In this document: piece by piece, positions 14,804 to 24,693 of the stretch | How the letters are laid out: the number at the start of each line of letters is the position of its first letter | Numbering within the stretch: position 1 is the first letter of the stretch | Assembly (NCBI RefSeq): GCF_002487355.1 | Contig: NZ_NTMG01000019.1 | Coordinates: 1 to 64,000 of the forward strand | Source of the DNA: Candidatus Methanoperedens sp. BLZ2 | GTDB lineage: Archaea; Halobacteriota; Methanosarcinia; Methanosarcinales; Methanoperedenaceae | Direction: 5' to 3' | DNA: 64,000 nt | Made by a program: the position numbers and the translations under genes | Notes under the pieces: model-generated | The model's input: the letters and a program-made list of their open reading frames with translations, nothing else | Databases searched by the model: none | Told to the model about the DNA's origin: nothing

Positions 14804-15361
14804 TTGGATATTTCTAAAATTATAGAAGTAGCAAAAAAAGAATTATTTGAATACTTCTCGATTCAACCAAATGTAATTTGGAAAGAAGAAGATTTGCAAT
14901 CTTTCTTATACCATCGATTATTAGTTCTTGAGCCAAATCTCAAGAACAGATTGCATAGAGAGTTTCCGGTTATTGTTTCTCACTCTCCACGCAATTGGGT
15001 TGGAATGTTAGATTTAGCAATAACTGATGAATGCTCAAATAATTTCTCTCTTCTAGATGTGAAAATTGATTATGCCATTGAACTAAAATTTGTTAGAGAC
15101 TGGAAAACTGGTTTAAGTCCAAAAAGTCTGGCAAAATTTGAATCTGAATGCCGAAAAGATTGTAATAAACTATTAACCCATGCAATAAACTTCAAAGATG
15201 AAACGAAAAAGTACTTTTATTCATTTAGATTGCCTCAATCCGCACAAATAGAGGATGTAAAGAATATCTTTGATACGATAGCATGGAATGGAATAGAATC
15301 TCATTATGTTGAATGTTATCCAGAATATAGGGGTTTTATGGGATACATTCATTCAAAGTAA
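14804..15361 (+). CDS. PD-(D/E)XK-type nuclease-like protein
   Basis: The 185-residue protein starts with TTG at 14804, with AAGAGG about ten bases upstream. Residues 65-100 show a candidate PD-(D/E)XK core: GMLDLA (D70), then YAIELKF (E93, K95), with acidic residues at 28-30 on a preceding helix. This arrangement is seen in restriction-type and Holliday-junction-type nucleases. The specific family is not recognised. The base composition is more AT-rich than the Hdr operon before it. It opens an island of restriction and toxin-antitoxin remnants, which fits a defence-related role, but no partner is adjacent. Confidence 0.6.
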   Translation: MDISKIIEVAKKELFEYFSIQPNVIWKEEDLQSFLYHRLLVLEPNLKNRLHREFPVIVSHSPRNWVGMLDLAITDECSNNFSLLDVKIDYAIELKFVRDWKTGLSPKSLAKFESECRKDCNKLLTHAINFKDETKKYFYSFRLPQSAQIEDVKNIFDTIAWNGIESHYVECYPEYRGFMGYIHSK

Positions 15362-15399: not shown

Positions 15400-15450
15400 C
15401 CCGCCCCTTTCCTCAATCCCATGCGCTATCCCTGATATGCAGCGCCTTCT
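15400..15450. repeat. GC-rich dispersed repeat, copy 1 (partial)
   Basis: Read on the minus strand, the core GCGCTGCATATCAGGGA, then GCGCATGGGATTGAGG and AAGGGGCGGG, matches copies at 24853-24938 and 25552-25637. This copy lacks the left part (AATCCCAGCCCGCGCC). It forms the 3' end of the hsdM stump. All three copies lie within the restriction/toxin island. Confidence 0.6.
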
Positions 15451-15601
15451 TCTGCTCCATAGCATCCATATCCTCAAAGCGCTTCATGAAAATCAGGTAT
15501 GACATCTGTTCGATGGATGAGAGGGGATTCGATAAGCCGCCGCTCCAGAATTTGTCCCAGAGGGCGTCTATTTTGGATTTGATTTCGGGGGCAAGTCGCA
15601 T
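15413..15601 (-). pseudogene. hsdM: 5' stump of hsdM (type I restriction methyltransferase)
   Basis: The 62 residues match the N-terminal helical domain of HsdM: LWDKFWSGGLSNPL, then an EQMSYLIFMKRFEDMD segment. Homology stops near residue 50. The rest (KALHIRDSAWD) comes from the GC-rich dispersed repeat. The ATG at 15601 has a good AGGAG ribosome-binding site. An intact HsdM has about 500 residues and carries the SAM-binding and NPPF motifs, which are absent here. This is the only trace of hsdM in the window, so the type I system on this island lacks its methyltransferase. Confidence 0.75.
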
Positions 15602-16375: not shown

Positions 16376-17293
16376 ATGAGAAAAGGCAACTACAGATTCA
16401 GGCGACCTCGCTGCTGCGGCTCTATGATGGTCTCAGCTTATATCAGGCATGGAAGATCGGCGCCGGGTATAGAAAAGGTAGGACTGTACTGCACACGATG
16501 CAGGCGGTTTGAGATAGAAAGACTTATGCACCCAGCCTTTACTGATTTTGTCAGGAAATTTCCAATTTTAAAGCATGTGGAAATCGCATTGAAGCCTTAC
16601 ATGGATACAGTCAGGGGACTATATTTTCATGGAAGCAGGGCAAGAGGAGACCACAGGGAGGACTCCGATTACGACCTTGTGCTTATTACCGGTAAAAAAA
16701 TAGATGATAAATTAAAGTCCGAGCTGAAGGAACATAATATCCAGGTGGAAGTTTTTACTTTGAGTCAGTTAAAAAAACAGCTTGATCTGACCCCATCGTA
16801 TCTGCTGACAGTTCTAAGGGAAAGCGTGCCCTTGATCGGAGCCGAATTGAGGGAAAAACTGGTAAGAAAGAAGATGAATGATATCGCTCTTCAGGTTGAA
16901 CTCAAGGACTGCATAAGACAGCTTGACTATCTTAAAATGATGCTGAAGAATGAACCTGATGATTTTATTAAAGCCCGTGTCATTCATTCTGCCATCCTGC
17001 GCCTGAGGCAGGCATATTCGATCAAGCGGCTGTATCATAGCGATGTGCCTGAGCTTTCCATGGAATTCAGAAAGTATTTTAATCATAATTTTGAGGAGCT
17101 CTATGAGTTATACAGGATTGTGAGGGACATGGTTCATGGCGATGGATTGAATGAAGAAGAATTACCTGAAAAAGTGAGAACTATGGCAAAAAGCAGGCTT
17201 AATAAACTTGTCAATTCAGTGGACTCTTATGCAAAAAATGTCCTTGACAGGATAATGATATCCGAAAAAATTGCCCCATTAAATCCTAAATAG
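16376..17293 (+). CDS. nucleotidyltransferase (MNT) with C-terminal HEPN-like domain
   Basis: The 305-residue protein has three parts. Residues 1-50 look like a zinc ribbon with a degenerate first knuckle (RCCGSMM instead of CxxCG) and a normal second one (YCTRC). Residues 60-160 hold the minimal nucleotidyltransferase signature HGSRARGDHREDSDYDL. The C-terminal 140 residues are helical, with the HEPN-like ARVIHSAILRLRQAY. MNT and HEPN proteins normally form two-gene toxin-antitoxin pairs in which MNT modifies and silences the HEPN RNase. Here both lie in one chain. The usual HEPN RxxxxxH catalytic motif is not obvious. It stands alone between pseudogenes and a PIN pair. Confidence 0.75.
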   Translation: MRKGNYRFRRPRCCGSMMVSAYIRHGRSAPGIEKVGLYCTRCRRFEIERLMHPAFTDFVRKFPILKHVEIALKPYMDTVRGLYFHGSRARGDHREDSDYDLVLITGKKIDDKLKSELKEHNIQVEVFTLSQLKKQLDLTPSYLLTVLRESVPLIGAELREKLVRKKMNDIALQVELKDCIRQLDYLKMMLKNEPDDFIKARVIHSAILRLRQAYSIKRLYHSDVPELSMEFRKYFNHNFEELYELYRIVRDMVHGDGLNEEELPEKVRTMAKSRLNKLVNSVDSYAKNVLDRIMISEKIAPLNPK

Positions 17294-18300: not shown

Positions 18301-19509
18301 TTATAATTCCCCCCTGAACGCCTTCTGCATCAGGGCGCTGAACAAGTCATCTATCTGCTGCTTTGATTGGTTCTGGGATTGGCGCGTGGCTTCGATTTTC
18401 TCAACAATGCGGGCGAATTTTTGCTGGAGAAAAATAGGTGGAGTAATTATAGATAAATTCATTAGATTTTCTTGAGAAATTTTCACCATACTCCCGCTAC
18501 TTCCATGTGCCAAAGTATGCAGAATTTTTTTTATACTATTTGTTTGTAAATATTTTTCAAAAAATACTGGATTTAAAATTGATCTATTTACACGGATTCT
18601 GATTAATAAATCTGGATAAATCACTTTTTCTGGAACTCCTTTATACATTCCAGCTCTTCCGACTAATTCTCTTGTATTAGACCTTGAAATCAAAATATCT
18701 CCTATTTCTAAATCAATGCCTTTAGAAGGTTTATCCCCCTGGTAATATTTAGTAATCACATTAGAAAGTCCATTATCTCTTAAATTTGCCAACGATAAGA
18801 CTGGAAATCCCCTAGTTTCATCTGTACATATGGGAGACAAACCTGAATTTAATGGTATCTCAAGACATTCTCCAAGTGCTTTTTTATCCCATCCTTTTGC
18901 ATTAATTCCAAGGACCCCGAACATCTCCCGAAAAACGCTTTGCAGCAGCCTGTCCGTAAGCTCATCCGCCTGCGCCCTGAGCTTCTTTGTTTCCTCGGCT
19001 TTTTCAAGGATCGACACGATGCGGCGCTGGGTTGGGAGAGGGGGGAGGGGGATTTTGGTACTTTTCAAAATTGTTAGATTGATATTATTTTGTGCTACTC
19101 CTCTGCCTATGCTCTCAAAATAGCTCTTAAGCATTTTTAAATAATAATAGAGAAAATCAGGATTTAAATTGTTATTAGTCATTTGTATGCCAGCTAATGC
19201 TTGATTGCATGCTGCATCTATTTTCAATATTCCAACATCCCCGAGAGTCGCAAAAATTGAGATAAGAATGGTTCCTTTTGGAAATATCTTTGCAGATGAA
19301 TTTTCAAGACCTTCATTTGTAATTTTCTCAGAGGTTTCTGAGATATATTTGTCAGAAATATCTGATATTTTGACCCATGGAATAGTCCCCGCTTCCCAAT
19401 ATTCTTTCTTTCCTCTGCTCGGTGTTCCTCCTGAACCAATTGCTACAATTTCCCCCAGCTTCTTCCATTCCCACCCCTCCGGTAGCGTGCGCCGCTCATG
19501 AGCCTCCAT
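18301..19509 (-). CDS. hsdS: type I restriction enzyme specificity subunit
   Basis: The 402-residue protein has two target-recognition domains, each followed by a conserved helix. The first TRD starts LPEGWEWKKLGEI and ends PLPPLPTQRRIVSILEKAE. The second ends PPIFLQQKFARIVEKIEATR and QSKQQIDDLFSALMQKAF. It determines DNA sequence specificity for HsdM and HsdR. The length is normal and the frame is intact. hsdM is missing from its expected place upstream, and hsdR is damaged. The 5' end (19476-19498) is duplicated at 21580-21602, on the far side of the TcmP/DUF5131 pair. Unless an HsdM is encoded elsewhere, the protein has no partner. Confidence 0.93.
   Translation of the reverse strand: MEAHERRTLPEGWEWKKLGEIVAIGSGGTPSRGKKEYWEAGTIPWVKISDISDKYISETSEKITNEGLENSSAKIFPKGTILISIFATLGDVGILKIDAACNQALAGIQMTNNNLNPDFLYYYLKMLKSYFESIGRGVAQNNINLTILKSTKIPLPPLPTQRRIVSILEKAEETKKLRAQADELTDRLLQSVFREMFGVLGINAKGWDKKALGECLEIPLNSGLSPICTDETRGFPVLSLANLRDNGLSNVITKYYQGDKPSKGIDLEIGDILISRSNTRELVGRAGMYKGVPEKVIYPDLLIRIRVNRSILNPVFFEKYLQTNSIKKILHTLAHGSSGSMVKISQENLMNLSIITPPIFLQQKFARIVEKIEATRQSQNQSKQQIDDLFSALMQKAFRGEL
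19476..19498. repeat. direct repeat, hsdS 5' end (copy A)
   Basis: The 23-nt segment within the start of hsdS, containing AGCGTGCGCCGCTCA, is repeated with one mismatch at 21580-21602. The two copies bracket the TcmP/DUF5131 genes and the hairpin repeats. Confidence 0.7.
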
Positions 19510-19520
19510 TTATTGCTCCT

Positions 19521-19591
19521 TCTTTTGCGTTCTTCGCGCTCTTTGCGGTGCATATTTTAATCTCACCGCAAAGTACGCAGAGGGCGCAAAG
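19521..19591. repeat. hairpin repeat of GCAAAG units
   Basis: The left arm (19521-19550, ending CTCTTTGCGGTG) and right arm (19564-19591, starting CACCGCAAAG) are complementary over the CACCGCAAAG block and imperfectly beyond. A 13-base loop separates them. The unit period is nine bases (GCAAAG, GCAGAG, GCAAAG). Palindromes of this kind are dispersed in many prokaryotic genomes. It lies between hsdS and tcmP. Confidence 0.65.
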
Positions 19592-19633
19592 ACTGATTTT
19601 AAGGCGTGGACGAACGATGAGACCCGATTATTA

Positions 19634-19666
19634 AATCTGCGTTCATCTGCGTTTATCTGCGGTTCG
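19634..19666. repeat. single arm of the CGCAGATAAA repeat
   Basis: On the minus strand it reads CCGCAGATAAACGCAGATGA plus a further CGCAGAT, the same unit as in mvhD at 8547-8576. Only one arm is present, about 45 bases from the neighbouring GCAAAG hairpin. Confidence 0.65.
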
Positions 19667-19731
19667 TTTTTCTTAATGAAAACAGGCAACCCCCACATCT
19701 CAGATAATCCATTCATTATACATTTCCTCTT

Positions 19732-20718
19732 TTATTCCCAGAATAATTGTTTATGTCCTGACTTTTCAGCTTTGTTTTGAATTTTGGTTTTAGCCGAAAT
19801 AGTTTCAGCACTATTTTCCCATTCTATCTTTCTCCATTTTTGATATTGTGGGAGCTTTTGCAGCTTCATGACATAGTAACCGGCCTTATGATCAGTACAT
19901 AAGAATATAGTGTAAACAATAGCTCCATCGTTTGAAGGAACTTCCAAGATTATTGGCGGTTTTTTATAGAATTTTGATATTTTTTCAGCATACAGAAGAA
20001 TTAAAGCTTCTCGTGTGTTTTTCCCCATTCCAATATAGTTTTTCATTTTGGATTCCCATTCCTCTTTTTTCATACCCAAAGAAATACCCACCCAATCATC
20101 TTTTAAATAATCGATACCGGTCTCCCTTTGCAAGGTGCTGGTCATTAAATTGATAAATAATTCCGGTCTTCTAATCTCAGTATACTTTCCTTTTTTATAA
20201 GAGCCTTCCAATTTACATATTTTTTCTACAATACTCCAAGGAAGATCTTGGGGTTTGTATGGATCAAGAATCCACAGGTTTGGAAAGTTGGGATTTACAT
20301 TTTTTATTGCTTCATCTACTGCGAAATCAATTGGAAGAGTCTTGATCAAATAGTTGATTCTTTTGGGCAATTGTAAATTGATTAAACTTGTTTCCAGAGC
20401 TAATTTTTGAGATGTTGTTTCTTCCTGATCCTGGCCAAATGTATTCAAAAATAATAATCTACCACTTTGATATTTCTTAAGACATTCAGCAGCTAGCAAA
20501 GAGGACCCCTTCCAAGTATTTTTCTCTTCTGGACAATAGCACAATCCAGATGAAGCATATAAATCAAATATATCTAAAGTGGGCAGTTTCGATTTTCCAT
20601 CCTTTCCAACCTGGTTAGACCAGATATCCAGGTACGCTTCCAAAAAGGCATGTTTTTGTCTCGAATGCCATTTTGTTTGTTCACATACCCTGCCTTCTTG
20701 ATCTATTATTTGGCCCAT
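19732..20718 (-). CDS. tcmP: three-Cys-motif partner protein (TcmP)
   Basis: The 328-residue protein resembles the TIGR04474 family. A Rossmann-like start (DIFDLYASSGLCYC, then KGSSLLAAECL) corresponds to the DGFAGPG and GSPLIAL blocks usual in the family. ILDPYKPQDLPWSIVEKI and later LFINLMTSTL follow. Family members occur next to a Gp37/Gp68 (DUF5131) protein with a radical-SAM-like three-Cys motif, exactly as here, three bases apart. The biochemical role is not established. A methyltransferase-like fold and defence association are reasonable guesses. It lies inside an hsd locus. Confidence 0.85.
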   Translation of the reverse strand: MGQIIDQEGRVCEQTKWHSRQKHAFLEAYLDIWSNQVGKDGKSKLPTLDIFDLYASSGLCYCPEEKNTWKGSSLLAAECLKKYQSGRLLFLNTFGQDQEETTSQKLALETSLINLQLPKRINYLIKTLPIDFAVDEAIKNVNPNFPNLWILDPYKPQDLPWSIVEKICKLEGSYKKGKYTEIRRPELFINLMTSTLQRETGIDYLKDDWVGISLGMKKEEWESKMKNYIGMGKNTREALILLYAEKISKFYKKPPIILEVPSNDGAIVYTIFLCTDHKAGYYVMKLQKLPQYQKWRKIEWENSAETISAKTKIQNKAEKSGHKQLFWE

Positions 20719-20721
20719 TTA

Positions 20722-21447
20722 CTAAGCCTCAATAATTTTTCTTGCTCTATAAAATGACTGGGGGAATTCTTCTCTTAAAACCCATTCTGAACCCGGGTTT
20801 TTTGGGATTTGCCCTCGAATATTGGGCTTGACAAAGAGCGGTATGTCATAAGAGGATATCAAATCAACAACTCTTTTTACTATTTTTTGGTCTACGCTTT
20901 TAGCGCCAACGCCCGATTGTGCGCCAATTATAGCCCAATCAATGCCAGTGAGGTCATCTGGCAAAAAATTTCCCAATAAAGGTTCAAATGAAATGAATTT
21001 CATTATTGCGGATGATTTTTTGAGTGTCTCAAGCGGCTCTTCCCAATATCTCGATGTTCCATCAATCGAAACTCCAAGCCACACATTTTTTGGAAATTTG
21101 TCTCTAAATTCTGGCTCAATTATTTTTTGCTTTGTCAAAATCTGATAAGCATGCCATTTTGCCTTATCCATAACATTGTAAATATCTTCACGCCAGCTGC
21201 TTTTTACCTCAATATCAAAAAAATCCCCCATCGAACATGTAAATATCATTGACTGTTTTGTTTTTGTAAGAGGCTGTCCCAATCTTTGTGGATGGAAAGT
21301 GGGTTTAAAAGGAGCTTCTTTATCATATCCAGAGCGTCCTTTAAGGCGAGTTGCCATCTTTTTTGCATAACAATATAGACATCCATTATTACAGCCTGTT
21401 ATCGGATTCCAGCTATAGTCAGTCCATTCGATTTTCGTGATATTCAT
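20722..21447 (-). CDS. DUF5131 / phage Gp37-Gp68 family three-Cys-motif protein
   Basis: The 241-residue protein opens IEWTDYSWNPITGC and carries C19-x3-C23-x2-C26 (CNNGCLYCYA), a radical-SAM-like [4Fe-4S] motif. Other family landmarks include SMGDFFD, WHAYQILTKQ, NVWLGVSI and WAIIGAQSG. The family occurs in phages and in mobile or defence loci and pairs with TcmP, which follows directly. The substrate is unknown. The gene is intact and AT-rich, like its partner. Confidence 0.9.
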   Translation of the reverse strand: MNITKIEWTDYSWNPITGCNNGCLYCYAKKMATRLKGRSGYDKEAPFKPTFHPQRLGQPLTKTKQSMIFTCSMGDFFDIEVKSSWREDIYNVMDKAKWHAYQILTKQKIIEPEFRDKFPKNVWLGVSIDGTSRYWEEPLETLKKSSAIMKFISFEPLLGNFLPDDLTGIDWAIIGAQSGVGAKSVDQKIVKRVVDLISSYDIPLFVKPNIRGQIPKNPGSEWVLREEFPQSFYRARKIIEA

Positions 21448-21562
21448 TTTATATCCAATATTTTTTTATATTTCATATTTATTTTCAAACACGGTTTAAT
21501 ATCTGATTTAAGATAATATATATTATTGCCAAGCGGTGTGAAAGTATTATTTTGTATCTGTA

Positions 21563-21610
21563 TCAATAATGTTTCTCTTCCTCCGGCAGCGTGCGCCGCT
21601 CAACATTCAT
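21563..21610 (-). pseudogene. 16-codon remnant of an hsdS 5' end
   Basis: It reads MNVERRTLPEEEKHY and stops. ERRTLPE equals residues 5-11 of the intact HsdS at 19509. The matching DNA (21580-21602) shares 22 of 23 bases with the hsdS start. It marks where a second or original hsdS gene began before the TcmP/DUF5131 cassette. Confidence 0.65.
21580..21602. repeat. direct repeat, hsdS 5' end (copy B)
   Basis: Second copy of the 23-nt segment at 19476-19498, with one mismatch and in the same orientation. The two copies are about 2.1 kb apart. Confidence 0.7.
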
Positions 21611-21611
21611 G

Positions 21612-21815
21612 TCAATATGATAAACTTTTCTTTGACCATACTTCTTTTAATCTGTGTTGTAATTCGACTGAATCAATGTCAATATCTCCCAGAAGACCCG
21701 CAAGCGTGTCCACTTTAGATTTTCGTATTTCTATAATAACCTCTTCCCCTTCGGTGGGGGCCAATTTCTTCTTTGGTTTCAATATCTTCTCCCGGTAAAT
21801 TGCTCTTACTCTTAT
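21612..21815 (-). pseudogene. DUF104-type antitoxin remnant
   Basis: The frame encodes about 67 residues that look like a DUF104/VapB-type antitoxin: AIYREKILKPKKKL, then EGEEVIIEI and, near the end, DIDIDSVELQHRLKEVW. It lacks a proper start. The frame begins after a TAA at 21816-21818, and only a TTG at 21782 is available, which would remove the N-terminal strand. The PIN toxin that normally follows is absent; hsdS remnant DNA follows instead. I treat it as a broken antitoxin. Confidence 0.55.
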
Positions 21816-21845: not shown

Positions 21846-22013
21846 TCAAGCCTCCGCGAATATTTCCTTCTCTAATACACCGCAGATGTTAATAAAATCA
21901 TTCAATTCATTCTCGGTGAACATAGGCATTGGCGCATTAATACCAAAATTCGTGAACGGCGCATCATATAGCTCTGAATACTCTATGTGTTTTTTCTTCG
22001 AAAAGACCGTCTA
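21846..22013 (-). pseudogene. hsdR: detached C-terminal tail of HsdR behind an in-frame TAG
   Basis: The main hsdR frame stops at a TAG (22011-22013) directly after NFIRTV. The same frame then continues for 54 sense codons (TVFSKKKHIEYSELYDAPFT, then FGINAPMPMFTENEL) to a TGA at 21846. That sequence looks like the normal C-terminus of type I R subunits, which end with a PPFT- or APFT-containing helical bundle. The gene therefore has a premature stop. Read-through would restore the natural end. Confidence 0.65.
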
Positions 22014-24227
22014 CACAGTTCTGATAAAATTAAGCTGGTCGGCGTTGTAGTGCCTGCTATTCTCGATTATATAGGTATCGAAGGCATCCTTGATCCTCAC
22101 AGCCGGGTCAGGGAATTTATATAATCCCAGGATATTCTTGACGAACTGCACCAGCGTGCCTTTATTTTGAGCATAAACCTTCTGCAATACATCCTCAGTA
22201 ATATACAATTCAGGATTATTAAGCGTCAATTCAAGGTCGTGAAGATCAGACTCGGTCAGAGCCTCATCATTCTTGATCTTCAATATAGCAGGATGCTCAT
22301 CAGCCAGCTTCTTTATCCTGTCTTCTACCTTCTCTTTATACACCTTCACATATTCCTGCTTCGCATCAGGTCCGAATTCAATAAGTTTCCTCTGCTGTAT
22401 CATATCATCCATGTCAAGAACAATAGTCTTTCGAGGCTCTGACGCCATATATTTCATCAGTTTTGCAAGTTCCGATATCAGCATCTGCGAATCCCCAAAA
22501 GAAATGTTCTCCCAGAACCTGTTTGAAAGCACTTTTTCTTTAAATGCAAGCTTTGGTTTGATTACATTCAGCTCTTCAGGCAGGCAGTCCACCATCTCCC
22601 CTATCATTGGTTTTAACCGTTCCACCTCTTCCCTGTTCCCATGCAGGATTGCCACACCCAGTTTTTCGCATTTAAGGGTAAAAAAAGCCTCATTCAGGTT
22701 CACGTCCTGCTTGAATCTCATAAGCGGAGTGATTTTCTTCTTCAGGAATTCAACAGGGTCAAGTCCCACATTATCCCAGAGTTTCGGGGAAAGTGCTTTC
22801 TCTACATCCCTCAGGCTCTCCCGAACGCTCACCGAATCCTTTGGCAGCGATGCAATATCTTCAAGGAGTTTCTTTTTAATACCTTCCGCTTTCTCCACAT
22901 CGCCAGTATTCAGGCAATGCTCAAGCTGCCTGAGCCTGATAAGGAATATCCTGTTCGTAATCGCTTCCCCGGATTCTTTCTGATCGCCCTCGGGATGCAT
23001 ATCCCAGTACTCGAAATTATCCCAGAAATCAAATACCTTGAAGTAAACTTTTTTCCCATCCGGTAGCCAATCCTTATGCCTGCAGGCATCATCAGACCGT
23101 GTGCCTCTTCCAAGCATCTGCCAGAACTTGATCCTTGAAAAAACAGGCTTGGCAAAAACAAGATTACATACCTCCGGGACATCAATGCCGGTGTCCAGCA
23201 TATCCACAGAAATCGCAACTCTTGGCAGCGATTCTTCTTTAAACTCTTTGATCGAAGCCTGAGCCCTTGGGTCTTCCGATACTATCACACGGGTAAGACG
23301 GCCTTTATGTTCTGGATATAATCTCTCAAATGCTTCCCACAGTCTCTTTGCATGCATTTTTGAAATAGCAAATACAATTGTTTTTGCAGGAAGATTTCCC
23401 GATTGGTCAACAAGGCAATTATCCATGAATTCCCTGGCAATAGCTTCACTTGTTCCTTTTACAGCCACTTTTTTCTCAAGGTCAGTCCCTTCAAAATTGA
23501 TCTCATACGGATCAATACCCTCTCCGGATAACCTGTTTATCTCACCAACAGGCAGATCCGGTGTTTTTATACCTTCGATCTGGAAATGAGTCCGGGCGCC
23601 TGATATGTTCTTTCTGAAATCACAAAGCACGCCATCCCTTACAGCTTCCTCATAATCATAAAGCGCTGTCGCAACTTTATTTTCACAACCAAAGAACCTG
23701 AAGGTATCCCTTTCGATAAAATCAGCAGGTGTTGCAGTAAGACCAATTTGTATCCCGTCAAGATACGTGAATACATCTTTCCATTTGTTGTATATGGAAC
23801 GGTGAGCTTCATCAGAGATAATAACATCAAATTCCCCAGGCGATATCATATATTTTCCTGAACTATCCTTTTGATTGTAGATCTCCATAAATGTCTGGAT
23901 CGTTGATGCATAAAGCCTCGAATTCCTGTTAAAAACACCGGAGTGGATCATGGATTTTGCTTCTTCAGGGAAAAATCGCTTAAATCCATCATCGCACGCC
24001 TGTTTTCGAAGCGCCCTTCTATCAGCCAGGAAAAGTATCTTCTGCGCCCAGTTCGCTTTTAAAAGCACATCGATTATCGCCATAGCAACTCTTGTCTTTC
24101 CTGTCCCGGTTGCCATTACGATAAGCGCTTTGCGGTTTCCTTTCTGAATATGTTCCAGAACCCTTTTTGCGGATTCGGTACTTTTAGAGCGGTCAATAAT
24201 TCTCCTATCAATCGCAAAATCAGTCAA
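22011..24227 (-). CDS. hsdR: type I restriction enzyme R subunit, helicase part (split gene)
   Basis: The 738 residues cover the SF2 translocase of HsdR: Walker A MATGTGKT, DEAH box (ISDEAHRS), LTATP, and motif VI QMLGRGTRSD, followed by the helical C-terminal region. The nuclease domain is encoded separately just upstream and overlaps by 8 nt. The frame begins at a TTG inside the overlap (TTGA). Removing one A from the A8 tract at 24228-24235 would fuse both parts into one standard reading frame (ERKKLTDFAIDRRIID). The frame ends in a premature TAG. The gene is therefore a pseudogene, a phase-variable gene or affected by a sequencing error; hsdM is also missing. Confidence 0.88.
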   Translation of the reverse strand: MTDFAIDRRIIDRSKSTESAKRVLEHIQKGNRKALIVMATGTGKTRVAMAIIDVLLKANWAQKILFLADRRALRKQACDDGFKRFFPEEAKSMIHSGVFNRNSRLYASTIQTFMEIYNQKDSSGKYMISPGEFDVIISDEAHRSIYNKWKDVFTYLDGIQIGLTATPADFIERDTFRFFGCENKVATALYDYEEAVRDGVLCDFRKNISGARTHFQIEGIKTPDLPVGEINRLSGEGIDPYEINFEGTDLEKKVAVKGTSEAIAREFMDNCLVDQSGNLPAKTIVFAISKMHAKRLWEAFERLYPEHKGRLTRVIVSEDPRAQASIKEFKEESLPRVAISVDMLDTGIDVPEVCNLVFAKPVFSRIKFWQMLGRGTRSDDACRHKDWLPDGKKVYFKVFDFWDNFEYWDMHPEGDQKESGEAITNRIFLIRLRQLEHCLNTGDVEKAEGIKKKLLEDIASLPKDSVSVRESLRDVEKALSPKLWDNVGLDPVEFLKKKITPLMRFKQDVNLNEAFFTLKCEKLGVAILHGNREEVERLKPMIGEMVDCLPEELNVIKPKLAFKEKVLSNRFWENISFGDSQMLISELAKLMKYMASEPRKTIVLDMDDMIQQRKLIEFGPDAKQEYVKVYKEKVEDRIKKLADEHPAILKIKNDEALTESDLHDLELTLNNPELYITEDVLQKVYAQNKGTLVQFVKNILGLYKFPDPAVRIKDAFDTYIIENSRHYNADQLNFIRTV

Positions 24228-24693
24228 TTTTTTTTCTTTCTATACCCTGGAATTTTAGCCTCTCAAGATCACTCTGTGAAAAAAATCCTTTAACCTGTCT
24301 TGGCCCATAATGATCCCTGTCCCAGAACCATATCTCGTATCCATTTGATAAGAAGATGAAAACATCCCTTCCAGTCTGCGCTTTAATATCATTCGCATAC
24401 TCTTGTGCCTGTTTTTGTGCTGCGAGAATCGGGTCTCTTGATGTACGTTTTGCTTCAATGATAGCTATGGGTGCACCGAACCTGTCAAGAAGCAGATAAT
24501 CGACATATTTACTCTCCATGTCGTTTTTCATGGTCTCAGAGACTGTTTTATAGTTCTGTGCGCGAAAATCCGATTGTTTTGTATCGACCTCTACAATTAT
24601 TTTCCCCCTATCTCCTACGATCCATCCTTGCTCTTTGAGTATGACATCGATCCTTTGTTTTCTAGTTAAAAATTCATTAAGATCTTTGCTCAA
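24220..24693 (-). CDS. hsdR: type I restriction enzyme R subunit, N-terminal nuclease part (split gene)
   Basis: The 157 residues form the PD-(D/E)XK nuclease domain of HsdR. The catalytic core is VDYLLLDRFGAPIAIIEAKR, with the metal-binding Asp and the E-x-K pair. The domain ends with GFFSQSDLERLKFQ, which in intact HsdR leads straight into the translocase. The stop falls just after the A8 tract. As a separate protein it could in principle associate with the helicase part, but a frameshift is the simpler reading. Confidence 0.85.
   Translation of the reverse strand: MSKDLNEFLTRKQRIDVILKEQGWIVGDRGKIIVEVDTKQSDFRAQNYKTVSETMKNDMESKYVDYLLLDRFGAPIAIIEAKRTSRDPILAAQKQAQEYANDIKAQTGRDVFIFLSNGYEIWFWDRDHYGPRQVKGFFSQSDLERLKFQGIERKKID

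Follow-up and report, generated by a model that had tools for sequence, protein, structure and literature searches.

Genes other than those for restriction and modification have been described at type I restriction–modification (R-M) loci, and Miller et al. 2005 reportedly surveyed the rlo genes linked to hsd loci. The genes studied here resemble PrrC (EcoprrI) and the rlo genes in being embedded in, or linked to, a type I hsd locus, but PrrC and RloC both belong to the anticodon nucleases and carry ABC-type ATPases, whereas our pair, DUF5131 and TcmP, is predicted to combine a radical-SAM enzyme with a methyltransferase. Furthermore, unlike the PrrC and rlo cases, the DUF5131/TcmP pair persists while its R-M genes are broken. 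More generally, type I hsd loci carry strain-variable extra genes among hsdR, hsdS and hsdM, with known or suspected defence roles (PMC2610378). Also close are PDC-M30 and PDC-M41 among the phage-defence candidates (PDCs) of PADLOC, proposed through guilt-by-embedding, which likewise join DUF5131 to a TcmP-like partner. As the preprint of Payne et al. 2024 is cited in PMC12988326, the criterion for a PDC is embedding inside a known defence locus, and PDCs are mostly without experimental validation (PMC12988326). Embedding in type I loci and the PADLOC listing of such pairs are already known, and the pair does not represent a new class; what is new is a repeat-flanked exchangeable slot, together with discrete alleles of tcmP. 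We know of no PDC definition that includes repeat-flanked exchange at hsdS, and no description of allele exchange inside tcmP or of an hsdS-flanked slot was found in the literature searched.

We analysed a 64,000-nt stretch of the methane-consuming archaeon Candidatus Methanoperedens sp. BLZ2 (the window), in which DUF5131 and tcmP, both intact, lie between two copies of an hsdS segment (R1 and R2; Table 1). The type I R-M set at this locus is incomplete, as hsdM is down to 53 codons and hsdR carries a frameshift and an in-frame TAG. In relatives, hsdR is a single ORF of 946–948 aa with CAG (Gln) aligned to this TAG, and hsdM is intact (501–502 aa; L032, L033, L034, L035 and L039). Pyrrolysine at the TAG is not favoured, given the CAG in relatives and the frameshift upstream. 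The vapB-like ORF begins with ATA where the alignment has ATG in relatives, and a PIN domain was detected in the vapC of L032. With hsdM deleted and hsdR interrupted by frameshift and stop, the R-M system of the window is dead and the pair intact; the pair has outlived the restriction system that surrounds it. One option in the original prediction was that the incoming cassette had displaced hsdM, which the relatives contradict: in every intact one, hsdM follows downstream of hsdS, on the side away from the cassette, where the window still keeps its stump. Loss of hsdM in the window is a deletion at the end opposite the cassette.

Table 1. Features of the type I R-M locus and its DUF5131/TcmP cassette in the window.
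Feature	Coordinates	Strand	Evidence or remark
hsdR N-terminal fragment (HSDR_N)	24220..24693	(-)	PF04313 3.4e-13; frame differs from remaining hsdR
hsdR main part	22011..24227	(-)	stops at in-frame TAG; C-terminal remainder continues to 21846
vapB-like antitoxin ORF	21612..21815	(-)	79-88% protein identity to L032, L033, L034
vapC start, truncated at codon ~15	21602..21660	(-)	alignment with intact vapC of L032, L033, L034
R1 remnant (left hsdS 5'-end direct repeat), hsdS codons ~4-11	21580..21601	(-)	
DUF5131 gene, 241 aa	20722..21447	(-)	PF07505 1.6e-52; predicted radical-SAM, CxxxCxxC
tcmP, 328 aa, predicted RlmJ-like SAM methyltransferase	19732..20718	(-)	TIGR04474
tcmP-internal allele-exchange segment	20000..20520	(-)	two discrete classes
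R2 (right repeat), non-coding part 5' of hsdS	19510..19716	(-)	includes dispersed genomic repeat
hsdS, 402 aa; first ~12 codons complete R2	18301..19509	(-)	PF01420 1.1e-46
hsdM N-terminal stump, 53 codons	15442..15601	(-)	PF12161 2.1e-8; remaining hsdM absent

The recurrence of a 22–23-nt segment of the hsdS start on both sides of the pair, on which the original prediction was built, is real (left copy at 21580–21602, with 0 expected in shuffles). A pattern search with GAGCGGCGCACGCTGCCGGAGG gave an exact match at 21580–21601(-) and a one-mismatch match at 19476–19497(-), where shuffles expect 0.00. The '16-codon hsdS-like stump' reported at the left copy, MNVERRTLPEEEKHY, turned out to have no hsdS start; it is truncated vapC fused to hsdS codons ~4–11, and its MN(V) corresponds to the PIN-domain 'IDTN' of the truncated gene when aligned with intact vapC. 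We reject an independent hsdS gene of 16 codons with a start of its own, as the sequence is a vapC–hsdS junction. In G001, the hsdS 5' end stands on both sides of the same DUF5131/TcmP cassette, with a left copy of 174 bp at 88% identity (L032:5898–6071) and a second one on the right, and the junction between R1 and the cassette is common to this genome and the window. The full left repeat is no longer present in the window and in G002. The 22-nt copy in the window is what remains of a direct repeat (R) that was once longer. That the match reflects chance or ordinary conserved HsdS coding is hardly credible: the 23-nt segment does encode ERRTLPEG, with which these HsdS proteins conservedly begin, but shuffles expect no second copy and the left copy lies outside any hsdS gene. 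Conserved coding as the sole source of the identity, which the original prediction had named as its own refutation, fails on the loci of G001 and G021, where the left copy is longer and takes in non-coding sequence upstream. R includes a repeat that is scattered through the genome, so some copies could come from other recombination.

Among Methanoperedens genomes, the contents of the slot (hsdR–cassette–hsdS) vary: it is empty, holds DUF5131–TcmP, holds PDC-M11 (a PIN-type protein and an ASCH-like protein), or holds DUF5131–TcmP and PDC-M11 in tandem. The empty site is that of G022 (vapBC–R–hsdS), while G001 has the order vapBC–R1–DUF5131–TcmP–R2–hsdS and G002 the order MNT/HEPN–pair–R2–hsdS. 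In G021, G019 and G008, PDC-M11A/B (1.2e-159 and 7.2e-50, computed on the G021 proteins) follow a decayed R, here too derived from the hsdS 5' end. The order hsdR–pair–hsdS recurs in L149, and FeB_1 L138 shows ASCH–pair–hsdS–hsdM. Cassettes that have kept their left end are preceded by the hsdS upstream region plus ~6–13 hsdS codons, and the second R copy begins the real hsdS, which therefore remains intact. This anatomy could also arise if the R copies were relics of tandem hsdS genes, the first of which lost its body and left a gap that cassettes filled by chance. Indeed, every copy is an hsdS 5' end in the right orientation, and target-recognition parts vary among the hsdS genes of relatives, making the 5' end the conserved recombination point. 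We nevertheless regard tandem genes as an unlikely origin, because two hsdS genes in the slot were seen in no relative examined, G022 carries a single hsdS without a cassette, and the cassette–R junction is shared between the window and G001 and between G021 and G019, in keeping with R moving together with the cassette.

Arrival of the pair as a cassette had been proposed from the window, and it is upheld by the empty site in G022, the alternative cassettes in the slot and the stronger conservation of cassette than of core DNA. Compared with G002, G001 and G008, the window has 82, 77 and 75% identity in hemB versus 95, 92 and 90% in the DUF5131 region. Between genomes, cassette DNA is 90–97% identical and the core gene 75–82%, from which it follows that the cassette moves. 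G021 is a near relative, 91–93% identical in hemB and in the flanks, yet its hsdR reaches only 79% and its cassette is a different one.

We consider it probable that a mobile two-gene cassette sits at the type I hsdS 5' end, between R copies, and that its pair is a nucleic-acid-modifying anti-viral module. Recombination through R is suggested by the anatomy of the locus: a cassette–R unit, circular or linear, would use R as its homology to recombine with the 5' end of any hsdS, integration of this unit in the Campbell manner would restore hsdS, and recombination of R with R would empty the slot. Later, in the window, hsdM would have been deleted and hsdR broken by the frameshift and the TAG, and deletion of vapC and most of R1 would have left the 22-nt remnant and the pair unharmed. 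The empty site and the alternative and tandem occupants show how defence genes come and go in a type I locus, and they would enter and leave it through the conserved 5' end of hsdS, which is left whole. DUF5131 (radical SAM) and TcmP (RlmJ-like, with an exchangeable central part) would jointly modify nucleic acid and act against viruses with no need for the R-M enzyme; candidate roles of the modification are self-marking, attack on invader RNA or DNA, and repair of viral damage.

DUF5131 scores 178.8 bits against PF07505 (gathering cut-off 28.9 bits) and carries CxxxCxxC at C19/C23/C26, with cysteines invariant in 19 sequences. The radical SAM superfamily combines such a cluster motif with a partial TIM-barrel fold, and DUF5131 fits this: Foldseek matched its AlphaFold2 model (pLDDT 86) to SuiB and spore photoproduct lyase (prob 0.99–1.00, E-values >0.001). 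DUF5131 models as a radical-SAM enzyme, its activity being predicted. Against PADLOC, it matched PDC-M41B (3.4e-57) and PDC-M30B (2.2e-54); TcmP gave a weak partial match to PDC-M30A (3.2e-4, residues 146–285) and none to the PDC-M41 partner model at E 0.01.

TcmP scores 76.8 bits against TIGR04474 (curated cut-off 53, residues 18–285) and adjoins the three-Cys (CxxxCxxC) protein DUF5131, which places it in the same family as the TcmP of the radical-SAM mobile pair with Gp37/Gp68. TIGR04474 also gave a match in the E. coli control. For the AlphaFold2 model (pLDDT 86), the best-matching fold with an RNA-methylating function was RlmJ, the 23S rRNA m6A2030 methyltransferase (Foldseek, prob 1.00). 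Both proteins share the order of a helix with an invariant Lys, motif I and the motif IV Asp; K22, D52, G58, D152 and P153 of TcmP are invariant, K22 and D152 in 24 sequences, and K18 and D164 are catalytic in RlmJ (PMC3814359). RlmJ-like m6A methyltransferases combine a Rossmann methyltransferase fold with a motif X lysine and DPPY as motif IV. TcmP differs in having DPY, DPF or DPC at this motif, which leaves N6-adenine methylation uncertain, and in its very low sequence similarity to RlmJ: the profile match was weak (10.6% probability, motif I region only). Searches of PDB sequences gave nothing decisive. TcmP models as an RlmJ-like methyltransferase of predicted activity. For the DNA/RNA-modifying role originally suggested, the two folds and the invariant catalytic residues speak in favour, and the activity itself stays predicted. 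The exchange segment, which forms the centre of tcmP (residues ~67–239), is 64–66% identical between its classes and 88–96% within them. A PDC-M30/M41-like candidate pair can now be put as a testable biochemical proposal, namely a radical-SAM enzyme joined by an RlmJ-like methyltransferase that has a swappable centre and K22 and D152 as its predicted catalytic residues.

An immediate neighbour with a radical-SAM-type Cys motif was found for 31 of 37 archaeal TcmP genes, versus 4 of 289 background ORFs. Outside Methanoperedens, hsdS lies ≤10 kb from TcmP at 4 of 36 loci (0.45 expected, P=9e-4); the remaining 32 have no hsdS within 10 kb. When matched neighbour sets were compared, those of TcmP hit models for type I MTase, for specificity and for IIG, and those of the controls hit no R-M model. 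Defence-type neighbours of the pairs include Hma, DISARM drmC, Abi and type IIG genes; on plasmids, a Tn7-like element is nearby as well as drmC and Abi genes, and in Gordonia prophages the pair lies in the integrase-immunity region. Plasmids with mesophilic relatives of the pair include those of Acetobacter and Leisingera. No member of this TcmP subfamily was found in viral contigs, and a search with the TcmP protein gave no match in plasmids and three weak matches in Gordonia phages. The survey of neighbours suggested by the original prediction thus revealed enrichment near restriction and defence genes, and the proposed defence association is supported by R-M linkage above expectation, by the Hma, DISARM drmC, Abi and type IIG neighbours and by the PADLOC candidates, making the pair a predicted virus-defence system. 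Tentatively, and with more doubt than confidence, radical-SAM/TcmP pairs may form a broad family of two-enzyme defence systems that modify nucleic acids, in which an RlmJ-like methyltransferase has a target-choosing centre swapped between strains like the target-recognition domains of hsdS, and its radical-SAM partners (DUF5131 and three or more further subfamilies) can stand in for one another. In Methanoperedens, such pairs would move by homologous recombination via the hsdS 5' end, and the type I R-M locus would hold other defence genes as exchangeable cartridges.

The pair could instead be a module for nucleic-acid repair or housekeeping modification that owes its place in R-M loci to their being hot spots of recombination. 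Spore photoproduct lyase is among the closest folds of DUF5131, most TcmP loci are away from hsdS, and purifying selection is strong (dN/dS of 0.07–0.09 for DUF5131 and 0.14–0.25 for TcmP). We find such a role somewhat unlikely, since the patchy presence (38 of 394 Halobacteriota genomes), the allele exchange in tcmP, the Hma, DISARM, Abi and type IIG neighbours and the prophage immunity regions are all typical of defence genes. Highly improbable is a toxin–antitoxin or addiction unit that stabilises the locus, like the slot-mates VapBC, MNT/HEPN and PIN-ASCH: the neighbours in the slot of relatives are toxin–antitoxin-like, but both proteins of the pair resemble SAM-chemistry enzymes and show neither a nuclease fold nor a known toxin fold, and the two genes are large and subject to purifying selection.

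The window (G000:C51:1-64000, from an archaeal genome of 3.74 Mb) carries on its minus strand the order hsdR - vapB/vapC remnant - hsdS 5′ remnant - DUF5131 - tcmP - repeat - hsdS - UPF0175/PIN - DUF433 - hsdM stump; in our genome collection, the relatives that share this locus go under the names Candidatus Methanoperedens or Methanoperedenaceae, so that the window almost certainly comes from a member of this genus. As originally noted, a recurring hsdS start encloses TcmP (TIGR04474, 76.8 bits) and DUF5131 (PF07505, 1.6e-52): two copies of a 22-nt segment flank the pair, with zero in shuffled sequences. The 16-codon hsdS-like stump also proposed there did not hold up. In an alignment with intact vapC genes from three relatives, the window matches vapC up to ...YHIDMNV and continues with hsdS ERRTLPE, which identifies the 'stump' as a deletion junction between the two genes. 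The vapB start codon is ATA in the window versus ATG in relatives.

Features of the hsd locus in the window and of related loci
Feature	Position	Strand	Remark
185-aa ORF	14804-15361	+	after hsdM stump; unrelated; no Pfam match
hsdM stump	15442-15601 (in region 15413-15601)	-	first 53 codons; 501-502 aa in relatives
Nucleotidyltransferase gene	16376-17293	+	divergent, inside hsd locus; weak match to anti-phage HalB and MntA antitoxin models; conserved in G002, G011, G016
hsdS-start segment	19476-19497		one mismatch
Match to R1 of G001	19665-19492
Dispersed short sequence	within 19510-19665		multicopy in Methanoperedens genomes, with a maximum of 29 matches per genome
tcmP centre	20000-20520	-	codons ~67-239
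hsdS-start segment	21580-21601		exact
hsdR	22011-24693	-	TAG at 22011-22013, CAG in relatives
R1 of G001	L032:5898-6071
ISAZ013-type transposase	L039:2484-3689		within hsdS of another Methanoperedens hsd locus
Another Methanoperedens TcmP, then DNA methylase	L139:1447-3461		N6_N4_Mtase, type III-like, in place of hsdS

The direct repeat (R) is real and is longer in relatives than in the window. In G001, the order is hsdR - vapBC - R1 - DUF5131 - tcmP - R2 - hsdS - HEPN-type gene (PF18735) - ... - hsdM, and the left copy, R1, matches the window at 88.5% along non-coding DNA upstream of hsdS and the first ∼6 hsdS codons. Because the sole hsdS start of G022 (vapBC - hsdS, without cassette) has the same left flank as R1, and the right copy, R2, shares its flank with the window, G002, G017 and G011, sequence comparison shows G022 as the empty site and G001 as the filled one.

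Other genes also occupy this hsdR-hsdS slot. In G021 and G019, R1 with ∼12-13 hsdS codons is directly followed by 498-aa and 139-aa proteins, which in G021 scored as the PADLOC phage-defence candidates (PDCs) PDC-M11A (1.2e-159) and PDC-M11B (7.2e-50). G008 has DUF5131 - tcmP - decayed R - PDC-M11-like pair - hsdS, FeB_1 has ASCH - DUF5131 - tcmP - hsdS - hsdM, and G002 has a nucleotidyltransferase/HEPN-like pair ahead of DUF5131 - tcmP. Every type of cassette has retained a junction to R of its own, so R probably moves together with the cassette.

G021 is the nearest relative with the locus (hemB 93%); its slot differs from that of the window, and its hsdR is only 79% identical. Compared with G002, G001 and G008, the window is 82, 77 and 75% identical in hemB but 95, 92 and 90% in the DUF5131 region, a contrast that points to a mobile cassette. 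Among five Methanoperedens genomes, the tcmP centre falls into two discrete classes (window and G002 versus G001, FeB_1 and G008), 88-96% identical within and 64-66% between classes, although all five share 88-95% identity in the tcmP start and in DUF5131, which lacks the two classes. This pattern reflects allele exchange rather than gradual drift.

In DUF5131, a CxxxCxxC motif is invariant across 19 sequences, and the AlphaFold2 model of the protein (pLDDT 86) matched SuiB and spore photoproduct lyase at a probability of 0.99-1.00, but with E-values >0.001. The TcmP model (pLDDT 86) has a SAM-methyltransferase fold with RlmJ among the top matches (TM-score 0.50-0.55 by target length, probability 1.00); the profile match to RlmJ covers motif I only. 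Catalysis by RlmJ requires K18 and D164 (PMC3814359). The invariant K22 and D152 of TcmP probably correspond to these, as inferred from fold and from the order helix-K, motif I, motif IV. DUF5131 and TcmP-like proteins already have candidate entries in PADLOC-DB (PDC-M30/M41); PDCs stem from a guilt-by-embedding approach, and most still await testing (PMC12988326). The classical example of an embedded gene is PrrC, which lies in a type I locus (PMC2610378). This analysis adds an exchangeable slot flanked by repeats at the start of hsdS, allele exchange within tcmP, and the proposal that the pair combines an RlmJ-like with a radical-SAM enzyme.

TcmP was present in 38 of 394 Halobacteriota genomes. 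An immediate neighbour carried a radical-SAM-type motif at 31/37 loci (4/289 background ORFs), and these partners comprise at least four subfamilies. A survey for restriction genes supported the predicted defence linkage: outside Methanoperedens, 4/36 TcmP loci lay <10 kb from hsdS versus 0.45 expected (P = 9e-4), an estimate that is conservative due to short contigs. Three to four of 132 TcmP neighbours matched type I methyltransferase, specificity or IIG models, compared to 0/133 control proteins from the same genomes; family totals (239 and 14) are inflated by overlapping models. The pair adjoins HmaA/HmaB on a Hydrothermarchaeota contig, lies between hsdR and hsdS on a Methanomicrobiales contig, and is near drmC, two Abi genes or a Tn7-like element on plasmids. 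In Gordonia phage Bosnia, DUF5131 and a TcmP-like gene sit between integrase and immunity repressor. A 645-aa ORF (L109, G320:C5), one part matching TcmP and another weakly DUF5131, is a possible natural fusion. L140 and L141, from a Hydrothermarchaeota and a Nitrospirae MAG, share a nearly identical DUF5131-TcmP-helicase arrangement, reflecting either horizontal transfer or misbinning.

The host R-M locus has decayed. Besides the truncated hsdM, hsdR, one ORF of 946-948 aa in relatives, carries an in-frame TAG and is split by a frameshift at ∼24230, within an A-run; the frameshift may be a sequencing error. dN/dS values of 0.07-0.09 for DUF5131 and 0.14-0.25 for TcmP, which cover mainly history shared with relatives and are matched by a low score for the broken hsdR, indicate probable purifying selection on both genes. 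Both are also intact, so the pair may well be independent of this R-M enzyme.
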